A stretch of 64,000 nt of DNA from Firmicutes bacterium HGW-Firmicutes-8. Its GTDB lineage: Bacteria; Bacillota; Thermincolia; Thermincolales; UBA2595. Each line of letters begins with the position of its first letter. Within the stretch, counting starts at the first letter, position 1. A program made the translations under genes and the position numbers. The notes under the pieces are model-generated. The model worked only from the letters and a program-made list of their open reading frames with translations. It ran no database searches and had not been told where the DNA came from. The stretch is taken from contig PGZN01000001.1 of assembly GCA_002840165.1 (NCBI GenBank), positions 1-64,000 of the forward strand. Direction: 5' to 3'. This document shows positions 15,834 through 27,652 of the stretch, in pieces.

Positions 15834-16583
15834 CTATACCTCCTCTGTTAGAATTGACAACTCCTTAAGTTCCTGTCTATTATAAACTGTTAAAATATTG
15901 AAGACTATTACTGTTAAAATCCCTTCACTGATTGCCAGCGGTATCTGGGTAACGGCAAACACACCCATAAACTTAATCAATGAAGCGATAACACCGCCCT
16001 GCTGGGCCGGAAAAGCCAAAGCCAGTTGAGCTGATGTGGTAATGTATGTAAGCATGTTCCCCATAGACGCGGCCAGAAATACCGACAACCAAAGAGGCGC
16101 CCCCATTTTTTTCGCAATTCGATAGATGAAATATGAAGCGACCGGACCTACTACCCCCATGGAAAAAGTATTGGCGCCCAGGGTTGTTATGCCTCCATGA
16201 GCGAGTAAAACAGCCTGAAAAATAAGGACAATACATCCTAAAACAGTCATCGCTAAGGGTCCAAACATAATAGCGCCCAGTCCTACACCTGTGGGATGTG
16301 AACAACTGCCGGTAACCGAAGGAATTTTTAAAGATGACAAAACGAAGGCAAAGGCGCCGGCTAATCCCAGCAGCATTTTCAGGCTTGGATTGGTATGAAT
16401 CGTTTTTTGGATGGAACGCAGTCCCATATACAAAAAGGGAATAGTCAGGGCGAACCATATTCCGGCCCAGTTCATTGGCAGGAAGCCTTCCATGATATGC
16501 ATGGCATAGGCGTTTTCCGGAATTATGAACATTACGCCAAAGATATAGATAAACATTAAAACAAACGTTTTCCTGGGTTTCAT
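15834..16583 (-). CDS. cbiM: Cobalt ECF transporter component CbiM
   Basis: About 249 residues from the ATG at 16583, preceded by AGGAGGAAAG. The frame stays open to 16748 but that part lies inside the leader RNA. A signal peptide (MKPRKTFVL to NAYA) precedes [14 protein letters not shown], the mature N-terminus whose Met-His binds Co2+. [16 protein letters not shown] and [14 protein letters not shown] are CbiM core motifs. It is the first gene of cbiMNQOJ, controlled by the composite leader 16625-17126. Confidence 0.95.
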
Positions 16584-16624: not shown

Positions 16625-16651
16625 AATTAAAAACCCGGTCAATTGACCGGG
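16625..16651 (-). terminator. Intrinsic terminator in the cbiM leader
   Basis: On the minus strand CCCGGTCAATTGACCGGG, a self-complementary hairpin, is followed by TTTTTAATTT. It lies between the structured RNA at 16716-16856 and the cbiM ribosome site, so it can act as an expression platform. Confidence 0.75.
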
Positions 16652-16671
16652 ACGGAATCAAAAAGGATAAA

Positions 16672-16856
16672 CCTAATCTGACCACCTCCCGAAAAAATAA
16701 AATTAGCGGCGCGCCAGAATAGGCCGGTTGCTTATACCGCATCATCATGAATGTAAGTGTTATGCTTTTCCTGGATTACATTCATTCTACAGCCTCAAGC
16801 AGTTTAAAAGAGATGAAACATTTAAGTCTTACCCCTCGGGATAAAACACCTATTCC
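16672..16856 (-). ncRNA. Unassigned structured RNA, candidate riboswitch (copy 1, cbiM leader)
   Basis: Read on the minus strand. P1: GGAATAGG with CCTATTCT. P2: GTTTTATCCC with GGGGTAAGAC. A conserved TTAAAT and a variable stretch follow. P3: ATGTAA with TTACAT. P4: CGGT with ACCG. The segment CGGGAGGTGGTCAGATTAGG (16672-16691) can pair instead with the 3' strand of P1 (CCTATTCTGG), giving a U-rich-tailed alternative hairpin. Two more copies at 26799-27177 keep the pairing with different bases. I do not recognise a named family. Confidence 0.65.
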
Positions 16857-16920: not shown

Positions 16921-17126
16921 AAGGTTCTCTTCCTCCCCATCCATCGTGGGTATCAGCGGCGAGTCTAAGCAAGCAGGTCTCCTGGCTCAAGATCATCACC
17001 TGTTCTGCGCCTTCCCAGATTTCCCAGTGGCATCATGCAGACAGGCTCCCTCTTACAGTGGCGGGACCGCGCCGGACTATAACCGGCTTCCCTTTTCAAT
17101 CCTGTTAAAACAGGATCACTTGCTCC
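16921..17126 (-). promoter_or_regulatory. Cobalamin riboswitch upstream of cbiMNQOJ
   Basis: The minus strand carries the conserved parts in order: AAGGGAAGCCGGT, GCGGTCCCGCCACTGTAA, GATGCCACTGGG, GGGAAGGCGCAG and the B12 box GAGCCAGGAGACCTGC. It should sense cobalamin and turn off cobalt uptake when the cofactor is plentiful. It is followed by a stem-loop and then a second structured RNA before cbiM. Confidence 0.95.
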
Positions 17127-17356
17127 AAACTATTTATTTGAAAATATTGTATCACGAATTCATTCTAATTGTCCAGAAAATTTTGGCTTTATAAGAACTT
17201 GTTCTCAAATTGCCAACAAACACGCATTTTCGCTACGAATAACAAAATTTTATGTGATTCCTTCTTATTATAAAACAATTTTATGTTTTACATAAAGGAT
17301 TTTTCTGGCCAAATATAGAATATAAAAAAAGTGGGATTTGTAACAACATTGAAAGG

Positions 17357-19074: not shown

Positions 19075-19272
19075 TTCTTCCTCCCCATCCTTCGTGGGTA
19101 CAGGCGGTAAGTTCAAGCAAGCAGGTCTCCTGGCTCAAGGTCATTCCCTGTGCTGCGCCTTCCCGGAATCTCCGGTGACATAATGCAGACAGGCTACCTC
19201 TTACAGTGGCGGGACCGCGCCGGATTTTAACCGGCTTCCCTTTTCAATCCTGCAAAGCAGGATTACTTACTC
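19075..19272 (-). promoter_or_regulatory. Orphan cobalamin riboswitch
   Basis: Minus-strand AAGGGAAGCCGGT, GCGGTCCCGCCACTGTAA, GGGAAGGCGCAG and GAGCCAGGAGACCTGC are intact. The usual GCCACTGG is changed to GTCACCGG. No gene follows: transcription meets a stem-loop, two terminators and then the convergent yedE operon. It looks like a leftover of a lost gene, though a stand-alone regulatory RNA is possible. Confidence 0.88.
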
Positions 19273-19352
19273 TAAATTATTCGTTTAAAATATTGTACCA
19301 TATTATCATAACAAGTTCCAGAATATTTTGCAAATACTAATAACATTTGGCA

Positions 19353-19835
19353 TTAAACATGCCAGACCATCATCCCGATATTGGCTTCTGCTTCTGCTTC
19401 TGCTTCTGCTTCTGCTTCTGCTTCTTCTTTTACAATACCGTTGATTTCTTGACTGAGGACAAATTCATTTACGGTTTTCATTACCTCAGGTGTTATGTCT
19501 AAATAGTCAGATAGCCAATCCCTAAGCTGTTGAATTGTTTCTTCAACAGCTTAGGGATTTGTCCATTGTCATTAACTCCGGGTGTCATTGAAGCAAAAAC
19601 CAGGTCAAACTTATTAAGCCAGCCTTCTTCCTGTAAATCTATTTCTTCCCAAGGCTTGTTTTGGAACTGCATAATTACCGGGTCCGCAGCCTATATCTAA
19701 AATATCTGCGCTATTTATGTAGTCGAAAGTGAATGCAGCATCCTTCGCAGTAAATTTTTGACCATCATGCCATTTTACATTTTCATTAAGTTTTTTTATT
19801 TTTGATTGACCCCAAGATAGATATATATATCTGCA
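19353..19835 (-). pseudogene. Scrambled pseudogene: ABC substrate-binding fragment joined to a methyltransferase fragment
   Basis: Minus-strand codons first read NENVKWHDGQKFTAKDAAFTF, a piece of a nickel/peptide-type binding protein (family 5). They then run directly into DILDIGCGPGN, motif I of a SAM methyltransferase. After a frame change come NKPWEEIDLQEEGWLNKFDL and VFASMTPGVND. After a second frame change follow RDWLSDYLDITPEVMKTVNE and the end MMVWHV. A perfect inverted repeat (about 19516-19555, CCCTAAGCTGTTGAA arms) sits at the second break. The intact counterparts of both families are neighbours at 31795-34128. Confidence 0.7.
19384..19428. repeat. Tandem hexamer GCTTCT, seven units
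   Basis: Seven GCTTCT units in a row encode an alternating Glu-Ala run in the methyltransferase fragment on the minus strand. Slippage expansion in a gene no longer under selection is the simplest reading. Confidence 0.85.
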
Positions 19836-19949
19836 TCCACTATAAAAGCTAATACCTTCTTGGTATTAATTTTGTTGTATATTTTGTTTTTCGACTTTAA
19901 TTTTTAAATTCTTTCTTTCAGAATTGAACTTTTTGAATATTTAAAAACT

Positions 19950-22900
19950 TTAAGTCCTTCTAAACATATAACCCTTAGCAAAAACTGCTACTACAGCCAA
20001 GGCGCCAAGTATACCGAATATAGTCACACCTTTTGAACCACCGGTGCTTCCACTATTGCTTTCAGGCTCAATCTCATATGCCTTTTGTTTAGATTTATGC
20101 GCGGCTTCCGGCCCGGCGCCCACATTGACGGATTCACTGCTGTTTTGCATCGCGACCTGCTCTCTGCCACTGGTGGAAGGTCCTTCACTCAGGGAAGGCT
20201 TGGTCCCGCCTCCCTGGTGCCCCTCCTGCCCGGACATTTTCTGTGCATTCTCCGCAGGCTTGACAGGCTGCGGTTCCGTTGATTGCTGTTCAGGATTAGC
20301 TGCAACCGGAGGAAGAATCAGACTGCCGCTGGTTGCGGAACTGTTAGCGGAACTGTTAGAGGTTGATGAGGATGAAGAGGTAACCGGTCTGGACTGAATC
20401 TGGAGTTGTTTATTTGTTGCTTTGTTAAAGACATCCTTAAATTTTTCTAAAGTATTGTTGTCCAAGGTAGAATAGTTGGCCATCCATTCATTAAACTTCA
20501 GGTTGGCACAGGTATGGTGGCAGCATACCACCCCGTAGTCAACCATGGTCTGCATATAAGTATTACTCAACTGTGTCAGATCTTCATCAGAAGCCTGCCA
20601 CATACCTTTCCGGGCCGCCTCTAAAGCATATCCGATTAAAGACTGCAGGGCATAGGGATCCAGTTGAGAGCGAACTGTCTCATTAAACACGTACGTAGCT
20701 GCAAGGTCATGCCAATTTTTATCACTTATGGCACCCGTTGTAGCGTCAACATAAAATGTATTGCCGAACCACTTAGCCAGGGTTTCTGAACCGGCATAGC
20801 CTTCTTTCAGCATTTCTTCCACAAATTTTGGATTCAAAAGACGGCTGTCCAGTTCTTGAGACACAAACTGCTCAAATGTCTGGATTTTTAACCGATCTGC
20901 TCCTAAACGCGTATTAGCAATATACGCATCCACATCTTTACCTGAAGCCCATTTTGCAGCTAGAGTCAGTCCGCCTAAGTACGAAGCTACATCATCATTA
21001 TCAAGAGCTCCATATGTGGAATCTCTAAGTTGAACTGTCGCTTGGACATTTTTTAACACATTTACGAAAGCCTCTTTACCTGCTTGTCCATAAACAGGAG
21101 TTCCATTTTTATCAGTACCATAAATATACGCTGACCGAGTTAGGTACGTATCTACCAAATCTTCACTTGTGTCCCAACTTTCAGTTGCGCCTATCTTCGC
21201 GGCAAGACCATTCCCATAGGAGCCTGGCGCTTCACTGTATACTCTTGATGCTGCTAGAAATTCTGCATCGTCTGCACTTTTGCCCTGGCTTAAGTATTCA
21301 CTCTTCAATGTCTCATAATGCTTTTTGATATAGTTGTCTTGACCATCATCAGAATTTATTGCTAGTTCTCGAATTGCTTTATCGAGTAGCGTCATTACAT
21401 TGGAGAAAGTATCCCGGAAAAGACTAGAAGCCGTAACAACCACATCAATTCTCGGACGTCCTAAATCTTGGATAGAAGTAATCTTATAACCAGTCACCTT
21501 ACCCGTAGCATCCCACACAGGTTCAGTCCCTAGTAATCTCATGATCATAGCAACACTTTGACCTTTTGTTCGCATTGTCTCGACCGCCCACAAAACAACA
21601 CCAACGGATTCTGGGTAAGAACCATGCTTCGCATAATAAGCAGCCAATAAGTCATCTGCACATTTTTTACCAATTACCCATGCTATTTTATCTGGAGTTT
21701 TACGCGGATCAAAAGACACCAAATTTTTTCCCGTTGGCATTACACTTGGATCTCGCACTGGATCATTACCAGCATTAGGAGGAATATAACCGGCCTTAAG
21801 TGCTAAAAGAAGCATGTCCATTTCTTGTGTGGTATTCTGCAAATTAGCTCGGATCTCCGCTTCCAAAGCGCTGCGGGTTGCCGGATCATAATTCACAATG
21901 GCTTTGACCATGCCTTCAAAAGCGGCTCCTTGAGGCGGCACCCCAAAGGTATGCAAACCTAAAGGAGTTACATCTGCTTCTAAGTCATCCAAATATTGTT
22001 TACATTTTTCTAAAGCTGAATCAAAATTTTTATCGAGATCATCTGCGCTGACCCCAACCTTTTCCCCTACTCCTTCATTTACCACTAATATTTTCACCTT
22101 GTTTTTAATCTTATCTATATCTTCAGCAGGTAAGTTATTCACAACTGCAGTATCATATTCATTAGCTAGATCATGCAGTTCTCTAAGATTACCATAAAGC
22201 TCTGTATTGACTAGAGCTGACGTCAAATGGTCTATCAGTACCGCATACCCTCTTCTTTTGGCTTGAGTTCCTTCGCCAGGGTTATTTACGATATAAGGAT
22301 AAATATTTGGCATATCCCCTTGCACAATATCCGGCCAATCTTCTCCTGATAAGCCGACAGATTTTCCCGGTAACCATTCTGCCGTACCATGGGTTCCCAA
22401 GTGTATTACCGCATCTGATTTAAACTCATGTTGCAACCACCAATAAAAGGCCAAGTATTGGTGGCTGGGAGGTAAAGTTGGTGAATGGGTAATTTTAGTT
22501 ACATCCTCTCCCCACCCTCGCATGGGCTGCGGTCCAAAAAAAACATTACCATTGATAACACCCGGGATAATTATTTGCTCATCCTGTACCATGACTTTTC
22601 CGGGAGCAGATCCCCAATCTTTTTCCACTGCTTCACGCAGCTTGACAGGAAGCTGGTTGTACCAGCTAAGATATTCGTCCAAGCTAATTTTGATGATTCC
22701 AGCTTGGGCAGCAAATTTTTCCAGCTCACCAGGCGCCCAACCGCCAATATTACGTCCTTTGCTAAACATCTCATTAAAAACCTTTTCTTCCGTGATTTCT
22801 CCTTCGCTGCTTAACGAACCATCTTGGTTCACAGTATAATCATTATTTTTTAAAGCCTTTAATATTTCCGTTAAACTCCTTGGTACATTTAAATAAGAAG

Positions 22901-24977
22901 CCCCAATGCCATCTTTACCACCATCATGGTTATAATAAAGAATCGCTACTTTCTTATCCTGATTCTCCATCTTGTGTAGTTTAGCCCAATTTGTCGCTCT
23001 TCCTGCCACCCGTTCTATTCGGTCAGGTAGGGCAACTCTTTTGGAGATAATTGCGCCTGTTGCTTCATCGGCATTTAAAGTCTTTATGCCCCCCATTAAT
23101 ACTGGTTCAATTCGGCCGTCCAGCTCAGGCATGGCTACATTCCAATATATGCTGCTGGAAGTGCCGGCTGGATCACTTTCCCATTTTTCTAAATCACTCG
23201 CATAAATTGGCGCTAAAACAGGTACATTCATTTCTGTAAATAAATCTATGGTACTTTGTTGATTTTTTGAGTCAAAGGCAAAACCCATCGAAAGGATGAA
23301 GGTATCTATTGCCGGTTCTTTCTTCCCGTCTCCATTTAAATCTCTGTAAAAGTAACTACGCACAGAGTCAATTTTTTTACTCGAAGGTGTATATATTAAA
23401 ACAACATTATTACCTTTCTTTTCCAACGATTTTAATAGTTCTGTCGTTAAGTCATAATCACCATCGAGATAAGCAGAATCGTAATCCATAATGCCAACCC
23501 AAGGTGCTGAGGGATCATATCCAGATCGGCTTATATACCAGTTATAATAATCCTCTGGATTTAAAAATGTCCCATTACCCTGGGCATCAGGGTGGTAAGC
23601 GAACGTACCTCTACTCCCAATAGGAGTTAAATCCTCGGCTGTCGTCACATCTCCTTCTCCGTATTTAGAAGCTAAAAATAACAATAATCGCTCACCGTTA
23701 TCTGTACCTCTTGCACTAATATATTTCGTCAGTGTCGTCAAATCGTCCTTATTAATATTTGCTTGGATCGGTAAGTCTTTAACAATATTTATTGCGAAAC
23801 CATCCGTGCAACTTGGGGTATAAATTGCAGGCACCTTCCCATTTTTCCATTCTGCCTCCCAGCTGTCTTTTAAAATAGTACGAAAGTCCTCTGTTCTCGT
23901 ATCTGAAATCATTTGCACTAATACGGCATCTGCATTTTGCACCGCTTGCTGAACTTTAGCCGTATTGGAAGCTAAATCATCTGCAGAAAAAATTCTCAAT
24001 CCAAACTGGTAGGGCGGGTTTCTTTTCTCCGTCAGGTTATGGTAAGCCTCCACAAGCGGTGACACAAGAGGTTTTGAACCTGTAATAATTACCAAATTTG
24101 TCAGGTAACCTTCCTGTACCTTAACCTGACAATCAGCCTTAATATCACTGTCCCCATAACAAGCAGCAGTAACTGTGGTTTCCCCAACGCTCTTGGCTGT
24201 TACTAACCCGTTATCTATTACAGCCACCTCAGGGTAAACGCTTTGCCAAACGATTTCCTGCCCGCCCATAACCTCGCCAAACTGGTCCTTTACTGTAGCC
24301 GTTAAGGTTCTCTCGGAGCCAACCCTTAAACTTAAACTGCTATAATTTAACTTAATTTGATCCGGCTTTGCATTTTCAACCGTAACCTGAAACTCGGCCT
24401 TGATATTACTGTCCAAATAACAAGCGGCAGTAACAGTAGTTTCACCAACGCTTTTAGCTGTTACTAACCCGTTATCAACCGTGGCCACATCTGGATTAAG
24501 ACTATTCCAGGTTAATTCCTGTCCGTTCATGACATCGCCAAACTGGTCGTATACTGCGGCACTTACCGTTCTGGTAGAGCCGACCCTTAAGTTTAAAGTA
24601 CTACAGTCTAACTCAATTTTATCTACCCTTGCCTCTTCAACTGTTATTTCACAATTAGCTTGCAAACCGTAACAGGCTGCTGTAACAGTGGCAGGCCCTT
24701 CATAAACAGCGGTTACCACTCCGGCTTCATCAACAGCGACCACACTATCACTGCTCTGCCATGTCACTTGTTGATTTTCCATAACAGCCCCATACTGGTC
24801 CTTTACTACAACACTTATCTGTTTGTCGGTACGTATTTTCATAACTGCTTTATCGGGTATTAATTCAATACCGGTAACAACACTGTCTTCAGCAGCGTTA
24901 ACTATAGGTGCGATAATACTTAATATTATGGCTAACAAAACCAAGTATGAATATAATCTTCTTTTTTTTCTCAGCAC
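19950..24977 (-). CDS. Secreted, membrane-anchored CobN-like chelatase subunit with Ig-like (Big_2) repeats
   Basis: About 1675 residues from the GTG at 24977 (GGGAGGGAAAAGAA upstream); the frame is open to 25016. A signal peptide (MLRKKRRLYSYLVL to IVNA) is followed by three Big_2-type repeats (about residues 30-300; each has VTWQSS/LTWNSL and GxTTVTAACY). The CobN/magnesium-chelatase H-type body follows (about 310-1500) with MPELDGRIEPVLMGG and [19 protein letters not shown], then a Pro/Ser/Glu-rich linker and a C-terminal membrane anchor ending YMFRRT. The catalytic part is thus outside the cell. No ChlI or ChlD gene lies in this operon; an ExbB/DUF2149 pair is directly upstream. The metal and substrate are unknown. 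Confidence 0.9.
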   Translation of the reverse strand: MLRKKRRLYSYLVLLAIILSIIAPIVNAAEDSVVTGIELIPDKAVMKIRTDKQISVVVKDQYGAVMENQQVTWQSSDSVVAVDEAGVVTAVYEGPATVTAACYGLQANCEITVEEARVDKIELDCSTLNLRVGSTRTVSAAVYDQFGDVMNGQELTWNSLNPDVATVDNGLVTAKSVGETTVTAACYLDSNIKAEFQVTVENAKPDQIKLNYSSLSLRVGSERTLTATVKDQFGEVMGGQEIVWQSVYPEVAVIDNGLVTAKSVGETTVTAACYGDSDIKADCQVKVQEGYLTNLVIITGSKPLVSPLVEAYHNLTEKRNPPYQFGLRIFSADDLASNTAKVQQAVQNADAVLVQMISDTRTEDFRTILKDSWEAEWKNGKVPAIYTPSCTDGFAINIVKDLPIQANINKDDLTTLTKYISARGTDNGERLLLFLASKYGEGDVTTAEDLTPIGSRGTFAYHPDAQGNGTFLNPEDYYNWYISRSGYDPSAPWVGIMDYDSAYLDGDYDLTTELLKSLEKKGNNVVLIYTPSSKKIDSVRSYFYRDLNGDGKKEPAIDTFILSMGFAFDSKNQQSTIDLFTEMNVPVLAPIYASDLEKWESDPAGTSSSIYWNVAMPELDGRIEPVLMGGIKTLNADEATGAIISKRVALPDRIERVAGRATNWAKLHKMENQDKKVAILYYNHDGGKDGIGASYLNVPRSLTEILKALKNNDYTVNQDGSLSSEGEITEEKVFNEMFSKGRNIGGWAPGELEKFAAQAGIIKISLDEYLSWYNQLPVKLREAVEKDWGSAPGKVMVQDEQIIIPGVINGNVFFGPQPMRGWGEDVTKITHSPTLPPSHQYLAFYWWLQHEFKSDAVIHLGTHGTAEWLPGKSVGLSGEDWPDIVQGDMPNIYPYIVNNPGEGTQAKRRGYAVLIDHLTSALVNTELYGNLRELHDLANEYDTAVVNNLPAEDIDKIKNKVKILVVNEGVGEKVGVSADDLDKNFDSALEKCKQYLDDLEADVTPLGLHTFGVPPQGAAFEGMVKAIVNYDPATRSALEAEIRANLQNTTQEMDMLLLALKAGYIPPNAGNDPVRDPSVMPTGKNLVSFDPRKTPDKIAWVIGKKCADDLLAAYYAKHGSYPESVGVVLWAVETMRTKGQSVAMIMRLLGTEPVWDATGKVTGYKITSIQDLGRPRIDVVVTASSLFRDTFSNVMTLLDKAIRELAINSDDGQDNYIKKHYETLKSEYLSQGKSADDAEFLAASRVYSEAPGSYGNGLAAKIGATESWDTSEDLVDTYLTRSAYIYGTDKNGTPVYGQAGKEAFVNVLKNVQATVQLRDSTYGALDNDDVASYLGGLTLAAKWASGKDVDAYIANTRLGADRLKIQTFEQFVSQELDSRLLNPKFVEEMLKEGYAGSETLAKWFGNTFYVDATTGAISDKNWHDLAATYVFNETVRSQLDPYALQSLIGYALEAARKGMWQASDEDLTQLSNTYMQTMVDYGVVCCHHTCANLKFNEWMANYSTLDNNTLEKFKDVFNKATNKQLQIQSRPVTSSSSSTSNSSANSSATSGSLILPPVAANPEQQSTEPQPVKPAENAQKMSGQEGHQGGGTKPSLSEGPSTSGREQVAMQNSSESVNVGAGPEAAHKSKQKAYEIEPESNSGSTGGSKGVTIFGILGALAVVAVFAKGYMFRRT

Positions 24978-25045
24978 TTCTTTTCCCTCCCAGAAAATCG
25001 AATAACAAACTAGCATTTATGTTATTAATTACTATTAGTCGGAAT

Positions 25046-25381
25046 CTATTCAATCATAATCAGCTTGCCTGTCTTGGGATCCTTGTAAACCGTACCCATT
25101 TCCTGATAACCTGAACCGCCTCCCGATTTAACCTGAGGCATTTCTTTCAGTTCTCTCCCCTTTTGGACATTCACTATCTTCTGGATTGCCTGCAGCATCT
25201 GTTGCCTTTCTTTAGGTGTGGATTTGCTGAAAAGGACATTCTGCAGGTTCCAGGAAAGGACCAGGGCCACCATTAACCCACAGGCAAAGACCAGCATAAC
25301 ATCAATGAGGTTGGCGACGCCCCCCAAGGGATCAAGGTCGTCTTCCTGCAGCCGCGACCGTTTTGCTCTCCTGAGCAACAT
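25046..25381 (-). CDS. DUF2149 membrane protein, ExbD/TolR-like partner
   Basis: About 111 residues from the ATG at 25381 (GGGAGGTGAAGGGG upstream). The N-terminal part RLQEDDLDPLGGVANLIDVM is the DUF2149 signature. One membrane segment (about 29-47) follows and the rest is an external domain containing the hydrophilic stretch SGGGSGYQEMGTVYKDP. The topology is like ExbD/TolR, which form the stator partner of ExbB/TolQ. It overlaps the ExbB-like gene by 50 bases and precedes the CobN-like gene by about 70, in the order seen with CobN-like genes of methanogens (established association, recalled). Confidence 0.85.
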   Translation of the reverse strand: MLLRRAKRSRLQEDDLDPLGGVANLIDVMLVFACGLMVALVLSWNLQNVLFSKSTPKERQQMLQAIQKIVNVQKGRELKEMPQVKSGGGSGYQEMGTVYKDPKTGKLIMIE

Positions 25382-26021
25382 CCCCTTCACCTCCCAGAAT
25401 GATTTCCAGTACAATTTCCAAATTACTCAAATCCTCTTCATACCAACGCCTCCTGACCTTGGAAATCAGGTAAGCAATAGCCCCGGCAGCGATACCCACT
25501 ACAGTAGTATCAAAAGCCACAATAACAGCCTGGGACAGGGAATTCAGGTCGCCCTGCCCTAAGCCCGCCAGCCCCGGACCTAGAGGAATCAAAGTACCCA
25601 TCAAACCTAAAACCGGTCCCCATTTGACAATTAGGTCGGTCTTCTCCAGGGTCTTCATGCCCTGAAATTCCAGGCTGTCAAGAATCTCTCTGGCCAAGAG
25701 TCTTTTGTTCCCGGAACAAGGATCAGGACTGGCTATCAGATGGAGCAGCATCTGTTTTTGTCTGACAGGTAATGAACTGTCTGTTACAGCTTTTTGTAAG
25801 TCCTGCAACTGCCAGGAACGGATTCCTCTCATATCCCGGAGTATTTCCAGTAAATTCCCTAGTTTGCTCTTTCTTCTCTTCCTCAACTCTGCGGTGAAGC
25901 TCCCCAGTTCCATGAATGCGAAAACTATAAAAAAGATCAATCCCAAAATATCGGGAATCAAAAAGCTCTGAGAAATTACATGCAAAATTTTGCTGAGGTA
26001 TTCTGAACCCGGAATAACCAC
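25332..26021 (-). CDS. MotA/TolQ/ExbB-family proton channel protein
   Basis: 229 residues. A first membrane segment is at about 20-40, a cytoplasmic region follows, and then the paired segments with the family motif: KWGPVLGLMGTLIPLGPGLAGL and AVIVAFDTTVVGIAAGAIAYL. The GxxGTxxPLG and AFxTTxxG patterns line the proton path in MotA/TolQ/ExbB. It would couple the proton-motive force to the external CobN-like protein through DUF2149. It lies between the DUF2162 gene and DUF2149. Confidence 0.92.
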   Translation of the reverse strand: MVIPGSEYLSKILHVISQSFLIPDILGLIFFIVFAFMELGSFTAELRKRRKSKLGNLLEILRDMRGIRSWQLQDLQKAVTDSSLPVRQKQMLLHLIASPDPCSGNKRLLAREILDSLEFQGMKTLEKTDLIVKWGPVLGLMGTLIPLGPGLAGLGQGDLNSLSQAVIVAFDTTVVGIAAGAIAYLISKVRRRWYEEDLSNLEIVLEIILGGEGDVAQESKTVAAAGRRP

Positions 26022-26037
26022 AAGTTATCACCTTTCT

Positions 26038-26724
26038 TTACTCATGTTTTTTTTGGTACCGGAAATAACCGAGTAAGGTCACCCCGACGAATCCTGTAAC
26101 CACCCATCCCAACAACATGGGCGAAGAAACCTCGATAGGACTCGATTGCATGGTCATGCCCTGGACAAAATTTGGAATGATAAGAGAAAAGGCCAGGGTA
26201 AGCGCTCCCATGAAGAATAACAGTTGATTGAAAACGGTTACGGGCCGGAATTTGGTAAGCTTAATAAGTACTCTGATTCCCAGCGCAACCCCCATGACCA
26301 TTAGAGCAAAAACAACAGCCGTACCGGCGCCCACAATTGATATACCCACACCAGCTATTGGAGCCATCATAATCACCGAAAAAGCCAGGGCAACCAGACA
26401 AAAAGGACACGGCAGAAAACCAAGCCACGCCAGTTTTCCCTTGTTCCTTTCTTCTCCCCAACCGACCGGATCAGATTCCTGAAGCCCTAAGTAAATTAGT
26501 AATATGGCTGCCAATATAGCTCCTACAAAGGTATAGCGGTCAAGAAAATGTACCAGTATTTTCTGGTGTTTGGCAAAGGTTTTTGCCAAAATGAACAATG
26601 CTAACCCGAATATTGAGGAAACCAGGACAACCGCCTTACGGCTCAGCCATGATGTTCCCAAAATAAGTCCGGTTTTTATACTTAAAATTAAGATTGCAGC
26701 CAGGAAACCTGATCTTAACAGCAA
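26038..26724 (-). CDS. DUF2162 family membrane protein (putative transporter)
   Basis: About 228 residues with seven membrane segments. The start is taken as TTG at 26724 because GGGAGGAGGG lies 8 bases upstream and family members begin this way; the frame is open to an ATG at 26766. The family-like N-terminus LILSIKTGLILGTSWLSRKAV and the Cys-containing PCPFCLVALAFS loop (about residue 121) are visible. The last segment region reads MLLGWVVTGFVGVTLLGYF. It is first in the operon DUF2162-exbB-DUF2149-cobN and lies behind a leader of about 650 bases. The function is unproven; a role in metal or tetrapyrrole transport is inferred from neighbours. Confidence 0.85.
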   Translation of the reverse strand: MLLRSGFLAAILILSIKTGLILGTSWLSRKAVVLVSSIFGLALFILAKTFAKHQKILVHFLDRYTFVGAILAAILLIYLGLQESDPVGWGEERNKGKLAWLGFLPCPFCLVALAFSVIMMAPIAGVGISIVGAGTAVVFALMVMGVALGIRVLIKLTKFRPVTVFNQLLFFMGALTLAFSLIIPNFVQGMTMQSSPIEVSSPMLLGWVVTGFVGVTLLGYFRYQKKHE

Positions 26725-26798
26725 GAAATCATCCCTCCTCCCATTTAAATAAGAATACCCTGGCATTGTAAACCAGGGAGCAAAATAAATAATGTTAA

Positions 26799-26971
26799 CC
26801 TACTCTAACACCTCCCCAATACAAAATAACGAGGTTTATTAGAATAGGCTGTTGGTTAAACAGCATCATATATGAATATAAGTTCTTCACCTTAATTTAT
26901 ATTCATTCCGCTGTTTTAGCCAAAATTCTATCGAATTTAAGTTTTACCCCTCAGGGTAAAACACCTATTCC
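26799..26971 (-). ncRNA. Unassigned structured RNA, candidate riboswitch (copy 2, DUF2162 leader)
   Basis: Minus strand. P1 GGAATAGG/CCTATTCT; P2 GTTTTACCC/GGGTAAAAC; conserved TTAAAT and GAATGAA; P3 ATATAA/TTATAT; conserved ATGAT; P4 GCTGTT/AACAGC. Downstream GGGGAGGTGTTAGAGTAGG (26799-26817) can pair with CCTATTCTAA, the 3' strand of P1. This is the promoter-distal of two copies in tandem. Confidence 0.65.
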
Positions 26972-26991
26972 GAAATATTTAATTTTACAAC

Positions 26992-27049
26992 AAAAAAAGC
27001 CTTATCTAATCACCTCCAAAATTATTCAAACCAGGTGTATTAGACAGGC
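26992..27049 (-). terminator. Terminator hairpin that uses the P1 strand of RNA copy 3
   Basis: GCCTGTCTAATACACCT and AGGTGATTAGATAAGGC form a long stem (CTAAT/ATTAG, CACCT/AGGTG and GCCT/AGGC pairs) followed by seven T residues on the minus strand. Its 5' arm contains the 3' strand of P1 of the RNA at 27042-27177, so the two folds exclude each other. Confidence 0.7.
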
Positions 27050-27177
27050 CGACCCGCTGATTTTTCGGATCATTATGGACTCAAGTTAAATTCCTCTTTT
27101 GAGTTCATTCTCCGTCACAGCAAAATATTTTATGAATTCCATTTAAGTTTTACCCCTCAGGGTAAAACACCTATTCC
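27042..27177 (-). ncRNA. Unassigned structured RNA, candidate riboswitch (copy 3, DUF2162 leader)
   Basis: Minus strand. The P1 5' strand GGAATAGG is intact and its partner CCTGTCT is slightly altered. P2 is GTTTTACCC/GGGTAAAAC, then TTAAAT and GAGAATGAA. P3 is ACTCAA/TTGAGT, ATGAT follows, and P4 is GATCCG/CGGGTC. P3 and P4 differ in sequence from copies 1 and 2 yet still pair, direct covariation evidence. It lies between the cobalamin riboswitch and copy 2. Confidence 0.65.
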
Positions 27178-27204: not shown

Positions 27205-27230
27205 GCCCTCCGCACAATTATGCGGAGGGC
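27205..27230 (-). promoter_or_regulatory. Stem-loop downstream of the cobalamin riboswitch (DUF2162 leader)
   Basis: GCCCTCCGC and GCGGAGGGC pair around ATAATTGT. Compared with the stem at 16884-16909, a T-A pair has become C-G at matching positions (CTCTGC to CTCCGC with GCAGAG to GCGGAG), so the pairing is conserved. Confidence 0.6.
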
Positions 27231-27239
27231 AAAAAAAGC

Positions 27240-27448
27240 CAAAAGCTCTCTTCCTCCCCATCCATCGTGGGTAACAGCGGTGAGTTCAAGCAAGCAGGTC
27301 TCCTGGCTTAAGATCATCGCCTGTTCTGCGCCTTCCCGGGTTTCCCCAGTGGCATCATGCAGACAGGCTCCCTCTTACAGTGGCGGGACCGCGCCGGATT
27401 TAAACCGGCTTCCCTTTTCAATCCTGTTAAACAGGATCACTTGCTCCA
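27240..27448 (-). promoter_or_regulatory. Cobalamin riboswitch upstream of the DUF2162-ExbB-DUF2149-CobN operon
   Basis: Minus-strand AAGGGAAGCCGGT, GCGGTCCCGCCACTGTAA, GATGCCACTGGGG, GGGAAGGCGCAG and AAGCCAGGAGACCTGC are all present. It places the secreted CobN operon under cobalamin control. Two unassigned RNAs follow it before the first gene. Confidence 0.95.
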
Positions 27449-27652
27449 GATTATTCTTTTAAAAATATTGTAACATGAATTTGTTTTCATTGTCCAGAAT
27501 ATTTTGGTTTTGGATGCTGTCAAGATTATTTTTTTATATTTCTTCCCGCTTCCGCAGGGGCAGGGGTCATTGCGGCCGACGTTCACCTCGGTCTGACAGC
27601 CTGCCTTTTGGGTCATTAGCTGGCGTTTTAGACATCTGCCGATTTCTTTCAT
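27437..27652 (-). pseudogene. SEC-C motif fragment with lost metal-binding cysteines
   Basis: A 71-codon frame reads TEVNVGRNDPCPCGSGKKYKK, the SEC-C zinc motif found at the end of SecA and other proteins. The expected following Cys-Cys (or Cys-His) is replaced by Ile-Ile, so the zinc site cannot form as usual. The rest of the frame runs into the riboswitch region. It is probably a decayed small SEC-C protein gene. Confidence 0.5.

Follow-up and report, generated by a model that had tools for sequence, protein, structure and literature searches.

The window analysed here is a stretch of 64,000 nucleotides (contig PGZN01000001.1, positions 1 to 64,000) from Firmicutes bacterium HGW-Firmicutes-8. 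Its minus strand carries three RNAs with a common fold (27177-27039, 26971-26838 and 16856-16713), referred to here as copies A, B and C of RNA X. Copies A and B are followed by genes for a DUF2162 protein, an ExbB-like protein and CobN, in that order, and copy C by the gene for CbiM. In both places a canonical cobalamin riboswitch, missed in the first-pass annotation of this DNA, comes first, so that the reading becomes that of a two-input device. The features are given below with the scores of two covariance models, R1, built from a five-copy alignment, and R2, built from RNA X sequences only.

27276..27459, minus strand: aptamer of a canonical cobalamin riboswitch (RF00174), first element ahead of copies A and B (cmscan 129.6 bits, E 2.8e-32)
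27205..27230, minus strand: terminator hairpin of this canonical riboswitch (GCCCTCCGC..GCGGAGGGC; from the sequence)
27039..27177, minus strand: RNA X copy A, putative reduced cobalamin-derived aptamer (R1 120.8 bits, R2 105.5 bits)
26999..27050, minus strand: terminator hairpin of copy A, its 5' arm including the P1 3' strand, then T7 at 26998-26992 (fold)
26838..26971, minus strand: RNA X copy B, putative reduced cobalamin-derived aptamer (R1 126 bits, R2 104.6 bits)
26797..26850, minus strand: hairpin H of copy B, with CCTATTC in common with P1, sequestering GGGGAGG (fold, z = -5.1 against dinucleotide shuffles)
26758..26780, minus strand: second terminator of copy B (CTCCCTGG..CCAGGG and a T-rich stretch; scan)
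26038..26766, minus strand: DUF2162 predicted transporter, first gene after copies A and B (Pfam PF09930, E 1.7e-49)
25332..26021, minus strand: MotA/TolQ/ExbB-like protein (Pfam PF01618, E 1.1e-7)
19950..25016, minus strand: CobN-like chelatase large subunit with N-terminal Ig-like domains (Pfam PF02514, 1031.6 bits, and Big_2)
16955..17138, minus strand: aptamer of a canonical cobalamin riboswitch (RF00174), partner of copy C (124.3 bits)
16713..16856, minus strand: RNA X copy C, putative reduced cobalamin-derived aptamer (R1 135.3 bits, R2 105.3 bits)
16671..16725, minus strand: hairpin H of copy C, with CCTATTC in common with P1, sequestering GGGAGG (fold, z = -2.9)
16634..16652, minus strand: second terminator of copy C (TCCCGGTC..GACCGGG and T5; scan)
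15834..16583, minus strand: CbiM, component of a cobalt ECF transporter, first gene after copy C (PF01891, E 3.1e-55; TIGR00123 above its cut-off)

The 5' block of RNA X (GGAATAGGTGTTTT..GGGGTAA.ACTTAAAT) was found as an exact pattern in exactly four places of this genome, all on one contig, and the reversed-pattern control gave no match in it. Three of these are the minus-strand copies which the first-pass annotation had recognised, and the fourth, copy D, lies about 21 kb past the end of the window (C50:85427-85463, start at 85463). The block also occurs in one genome from a different family of the same order, and R1 yields more matches within the family and the phylum. The five-copy alignment folds into P1, a P2 of 9 bp and a long interrupted arm, P6a/P6b/P6c. 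The helices originally named P3 and P4, which correspond to P6c and P6b, do change on both sides in the alignment as claimed; the motif CCTATTC, described as common to all three copies, is present in copies B and C and reads CCTGTC in copy A.

Covariance models were adopted for the search because a loose 16-base pattern, run over relatives, gave mostly chance matches. With duplicates and false matches taken out, this approach, already proposed in the first-pass annotation, identified 33 distinct homologues, which come from at least ten families of the phylum. Among 399 genomes sampled evenly across the phylum, R1 matched 22; one of these matches (L045, 31 bits), which has neither P1 nor the core, was rejected as chance. 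In a single pattern scan covering 84,980 named genomes, 11 loci turned up; their hosts are Desulfofundulus species, a Desulfovirgula MAG, Thermoanaerobacteraceae and other Firmicutes/Clostridia MAGs. Candidates L050, L104-L106, L108, L111, L112 and L115 (about 35-49 bits with R1/R2, about 165-175 nt) proved to be canonical cobalamin riboswitches.

Standard pairs fill 91.0% of the pair cells of the 33 homologues, compared to a mean of 72.6% in shuffles, none of 500 reaching the observed value, and 36-51% in slid-partner controls; fitting the alignment to R1 favours the structure, but both kinds of control are nonetheless far below. Two-sided compensatory changes are seen in 27 of the 36 base pairs, including eight of nine in P2 and nine of ten in P6c. 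P2 spans 22 nt in 27 homologues and 21 nt in five of the 33, with a loop of the form C-YGRG-G, and the P2 helices of the upstream partners (few of which were measurable by script) differ from it in length and loop. In the P6 internal loop conserved unpaired positions occur on both strands, one G and one A in the 5' strand and AUG in the 3' strand; also conserved and unpaired in the 33 sequences are the GA of L2 and UUAAA. That both P2 and P6c keep a fixed length points to a possible new docking contact between P2 and P6.

The window copies have no match to any Rfam family even at E<=10, in line with the original remark that no known class could be matched to them, but their kinship can be recognised through homologues elsewhere. 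RF00174, with a gathering cut-off of 31.5 bits, matches homologue L030 at 59 bits (E 1.7e-14), with the P3 and P5 positions deleted, and homologue L035 at 32.7 bits; only these two pass the cut-off. In the L030 alignment P1, P2, UUAAA, the P4 T-loop hairpin, ACUGU, GAGCCAG and the P1 3' strand are all in register with the family model, P3 is partly deleted, and the P5/L5 stretch has shrunk from ten model positions to 3 nt. Reciprocally, canonical cobalamin riboswitches score up to 49 bits with R2, against 78-125 for the 33 RNA X sequences themselves. On the strength of these matches in both directions RNA X is a derived cobalamin riboswitch, the intermediates showing its descent from RF00174. 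No other Rfam family, the NiCo riboswitch included, gives a gathering-score match to RNA X, and no earlier description was found in Rfam or the searchable open-access literature.

The scaffold kept from the ancestor comprises P1, P2, UUAAA, P6 and GAUGA, with P4 in intermediates, whereas the B12 box, P3 and both halves of the kissing loop (P5/L5 and L13) are missing. The B12 box (AGCCAGGAGACC) was found by a strict motif in none of the 33 RNA X sequences against 30 of the 33 upstream partners, the latter count being a lower bound. The L5 loop (UCCCGC), kissing partner of L13, is likewise absent; three matches to UCCCGC in RNA X derive from P2 or stem sequence and were not accepted as L5. The P4 T-loop hairpin (CCGGUGNAAAUCCGG) is found in the L030, L029, L038 and L040 types and is degenerate or forms no hairpin in the window copies. 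The sequences can be arranged in a series from canonical RNAs, via intermediates without P3/P5 but with P4 (L029, L030, L038, L040), to the window type with reduced P4.

A complete RF00174 riboswitch is located directly upstream of RNA X in all 33 cases, copy B coming after copy A. The gap between the two elements is about 70-200 nt, mostly near 100, in the loci with listed coordinates. In the HGW-Firmicutes-8 genome three of the ten RF00174 members above or near the cut-off are the partners of the four RNA X copies. Canonical-canonical doublets exist as well, and are a plausible source of RNA X. That RNA X never occurs alone does not hold, since a divergent one beyond the 33, L114 in G013, and an identical sequence in the sister genome G059 are solitary; L114 has a promoter-like sequence ahead and cbiMNQO after it. 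In the leader of copies A and B, TGGGGAGG (27260-27253), upstream of the canonical terminator hairpin, can pair with the CCCTCC arm of the latter. Another candidate in the same genome, L109 (G000:C50:74380-74546; RF00174, 31.3 bits), was rejected as RNA X; it is a decayed canonical riboswitch, directly upstream of an intact one and ahead of a large putative surface protein.

RNA X is a conserved aptamer with a mutually exclusive expression platform, as had been recognised from the sharing of the P1 3' strand by both folds. This strand doubles as the 5' arm either of an intrinsic terminator or of a hairpin in which an antiterminator is sequestered. At least five of the seven bases of CCUAUUC pair downstream in 28 of the 33 loci, and the resulting hairpin has a mean z of -2.7 against dinucleotide shuffles (z<-1.5 in 24 of 33). 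In many loci it closes in a T-run and is a terminator (G009: GGCCTATTCTAATACACC..GGAGGTGATTAGATTAGGCCGTTTTT). Just outside P1 are bases that the aptamer mostly leaves unpaired; they covary with the 3' end of the hairpin (CGG/CCG, CAG/CTG, AGG/CCT, ATG/CAT). Downstream of the hairpin that involves the initially described GGAGGTG..AGG segment, copies B and C also carry a second terminator, as do many other loci. The 5' arm of this second terminator (CTCCC, TTCCCC, TCCCGG) complements the GGGGAGG of the first hairpin, and in copy B it complements TTGGGGAG of hairpin H; GGGGAGG can therefore be read as an antiterminator. Most loci have either a T-run terminator on the P1 strand or GGGGAG and a second terminator complementary to it. 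By computed energy the hairpin state is the lower one in 24 of 35 loci; in Desulfofundulus-type loci the hairpin z-scores are weak and the P1 states are computed to be more stable.

Since formation of P1 means read-through in both layouts, an ON sign is predicted for RNA X, as in the first-pass annotation, in contrast to the upstream riboswitch, for which OFF is usual. The canonical OFF mechanism, by P13 and the kissing loop, was rejected for RNA X, as L5 and L13 are missing.

Nearly all targets of RNA X are genes for cobalt (CbiJ/CbiMNQO) or corrinoid uptake. CbiM or CbiJ-CbiM follows most RNA X copies, SLH/DUF4430 proteins with an ECF transporter follow five, and BtuF-FecCD-type transporters follow several, with CobN next in two cases. 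The exceptions are L034 (L073) and L061, in Desulfofundulus-type genomes, where an HD/GGDEF-like reading frame follows; in no other context is an obvious cobalt or corrinoid gene missing.

We propose that RNA X arose in tandem as a paralogue of the cobalamin riboswitch, that the B12 box, the P3 helix and both partners of the kissing loop (P5/L5 and L13) were lost from it, that it was rewired from OFF to ON, and that it senses a ligand Y, a reading which we regard as reasonably probable. Without ligand, the P1 3' strand (CCUAUUC) would pair downstream with AGAUUAGG, giving an intrinsic terminator directly or, in the other layout, a hairpin in which GGGGAGG is sequestered and the second terminator is free to form. 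Binding of Y would stabilise P1 and the reduced aptamer, the hairpin could not close, and transcription would continue. The tandem leader would then act as a 'NOT AdoCbl AND Y' gate for cobalt and corrinoid uptake genes. As Y we would first suspect an incomplete or precursor corrinoid or tetrapyrrole whose presence signals cobalt demand; such a compound, or another cobalt-status signal, would fit the targets. We see about an even chance that RNA X is a new class responding to a tetrapyrrole, a corrinoid precursor or a metabolite that reports cobalt status, formed by in-place duplication, kissing-loop deletion and sign inversion, and working in a two-input gate. Three points speak against the proposal: little of the canonical pocket is left in the window copies, as the P4 T-loop is reduced or lost there too; the Desulfofundulus-type loci agree with it less well; and the near-obligate tandem could mean that RNA X helps the first riboswitch instead of sensing.

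The homology with cobalamin riboswitches, the control of cobalt and corrinoid genes and the retention of P4 and GAGCCAG in intermediates would also agree with a second corrinoid sensor that still binds AdoCbl or another complete cobamide through its reduced pocket, giving a pseudo-cooperative or band-pass response; AdoCbl doublets are known and have been read as pseudo-cooperative (PMC9481103). This is rather unlikely in our judgement, as RNA X has neither the B12 box nor the L5-L13 kissing loop needed by corrinoid riboswitches (PMC10653944). AdoCbl in particular is an unlikely Y, because one ligand acting on two switches of opposite predicted sign would cancel out, and because the solitary RNA X ahead of cbiMNQO would put cobalt import under positive feedback.

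The near-obligate tandem at about 70-200 nt and the loss of ancestral pocket elements would agree with a ligand-free RNA X, which would then be either a constitutive attenuator, its P1/terminator balance determining how leaky the first riboswitch is, or an additional expression platform for the upstream aptamer. We consider this improbable, given that unpaired UUAAA, AUGA and the L2 loop are conserved over 33 distant sequences, that every helix is maintained, most of them through compensatory changes, and that the solitary RNA X has a promoter-like sequence of its own. A wholly new riboswitch class without kinship to cobalamin riboswitches, as suggested in the first-pass annotation, would agree with the lack of Rfam matches of the window copies, but is rejected as hardly credible in view of the direct RF00174 matches to intermediates and the reciprocal matches of the RNA X model to canonical riboswitches.

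With the class I (AdoCbl) riboswitch RF00174 our preferred tandem-born paralogue shares P1, P2, UUAAA as J2/3, P6 with its ACUG/CAG base and GAUGA internal loop, the P4 T-loop hairpin in intermediates, and gene contexts, besides the homology by covariance model. It differs in lacking P3 (AGGGAA/GACC), P5/L5, P13/L13 and the B12 box, in its fixed-length P2 with YGRG loop, in that P1 itself competes with the terminator, and in the predicted ON sign. The cobT corrinoid riboswitch of Alkalihalobacillus halodurans, the first activating one reported, responds to cobinamide and requires its kissing loop (PMC10653944). It resembles RNA X as a relative of corrinoid riboswitches that activates by transcription antitermination (predicted for RNA X), but it retains L5/L13 and has P13 as antiterminator, whereas RNA X uses P1 without a kissing loop. 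Tandems of TPP and HMP-PP riboswitches (thiS) are NOT A AND B gates in which the second, ON switch has the precursor as ligand (PMC6478431, PMC9481103), and like the predicted RNA X arrangement they place an OFF switch for the end product before an ON switch with its own terminator (PMC6478431). However, about 70% of HMP-PP riboswitches lie outside tandems, and none is derived from the TPP aptamer in that work (PMC6478431), while RNA X is in tandem in nearly all loci and appears to descend from its partner. Some of the 26 AdoCbl doublets counted as pseudo-cooperative in a 2022 survey (PMC9481103) may be RNA X of the intermediate type.

Variants with changed ligands (ykkC/PRPP/ppGpp, guanine, SAM-spermidine) kept their core architecture. 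RNA X has likewise diverged from a known scaffold, presumably with new specificity, but has deleted whole helices. As a rule, riboswitch classes come to light with no visible trace of their history. In this case ancestor and descendant stand about 100 nt apart in one leader, and intermediates survive in other genomes, so that the path of aptamer remodelling and predicted sign inversion is readable and testable. In many anaerobes RNA X comes after an ordinary B12 switch in the leaders of genes for uptake of cobalt or B12; it has lost the parts that grip B12, appears to be wired for ON and probably senses a different molecule. Should Y be a corrin precursor or a signal of cobalt status, this would explain how anaerobes that produce corrinoids adjust cobalt import to corrin synthesis, and a distinct ligand, if shown, would make RNA X a new riboswitch class.

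Some further observations concern individual loci. A third canonical cobalamin riboswitch in the window (19103-19285, minus strand) has a terminator and no RNA X after it; downstream, TTAAACCTATTCTCTAATC looks like a remnant of an RNA X 3' end, gene fragments lie beside the riboswitch (19300-19900), and the locus seems decayed. Loci L096-L103, in the class of G239 and in CbiM context, form a further RNA X subtype that scores only about 37-55 bits with R2; it has a GGGGAGG/CTCCCCGG antiterminator and a second terminator. The CobN-like protein encoded at 19950-25016 (minus strand) starts with a signal-peptide-like stretch, carries Ig-like (Big_2) domains and has a hydrophobic segment in its C-terminal part. 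Together with the ExbB-like and DUF2162 proteins it possibly forms an outward-facing system for handling corrinoids or metal chelates, controlled by AdoCbl and RNA X. At L018, L019, L067, L076 and L077 large S-layer-anchored DUF4430 proteins are encoded next to EcfT/EcfA, some of them with cyclase-like or Ig-like domains; their domain make-up recalls that of intrinsic factor and transcobalamin, and they are candidate corrinoid-binding surface proteins.
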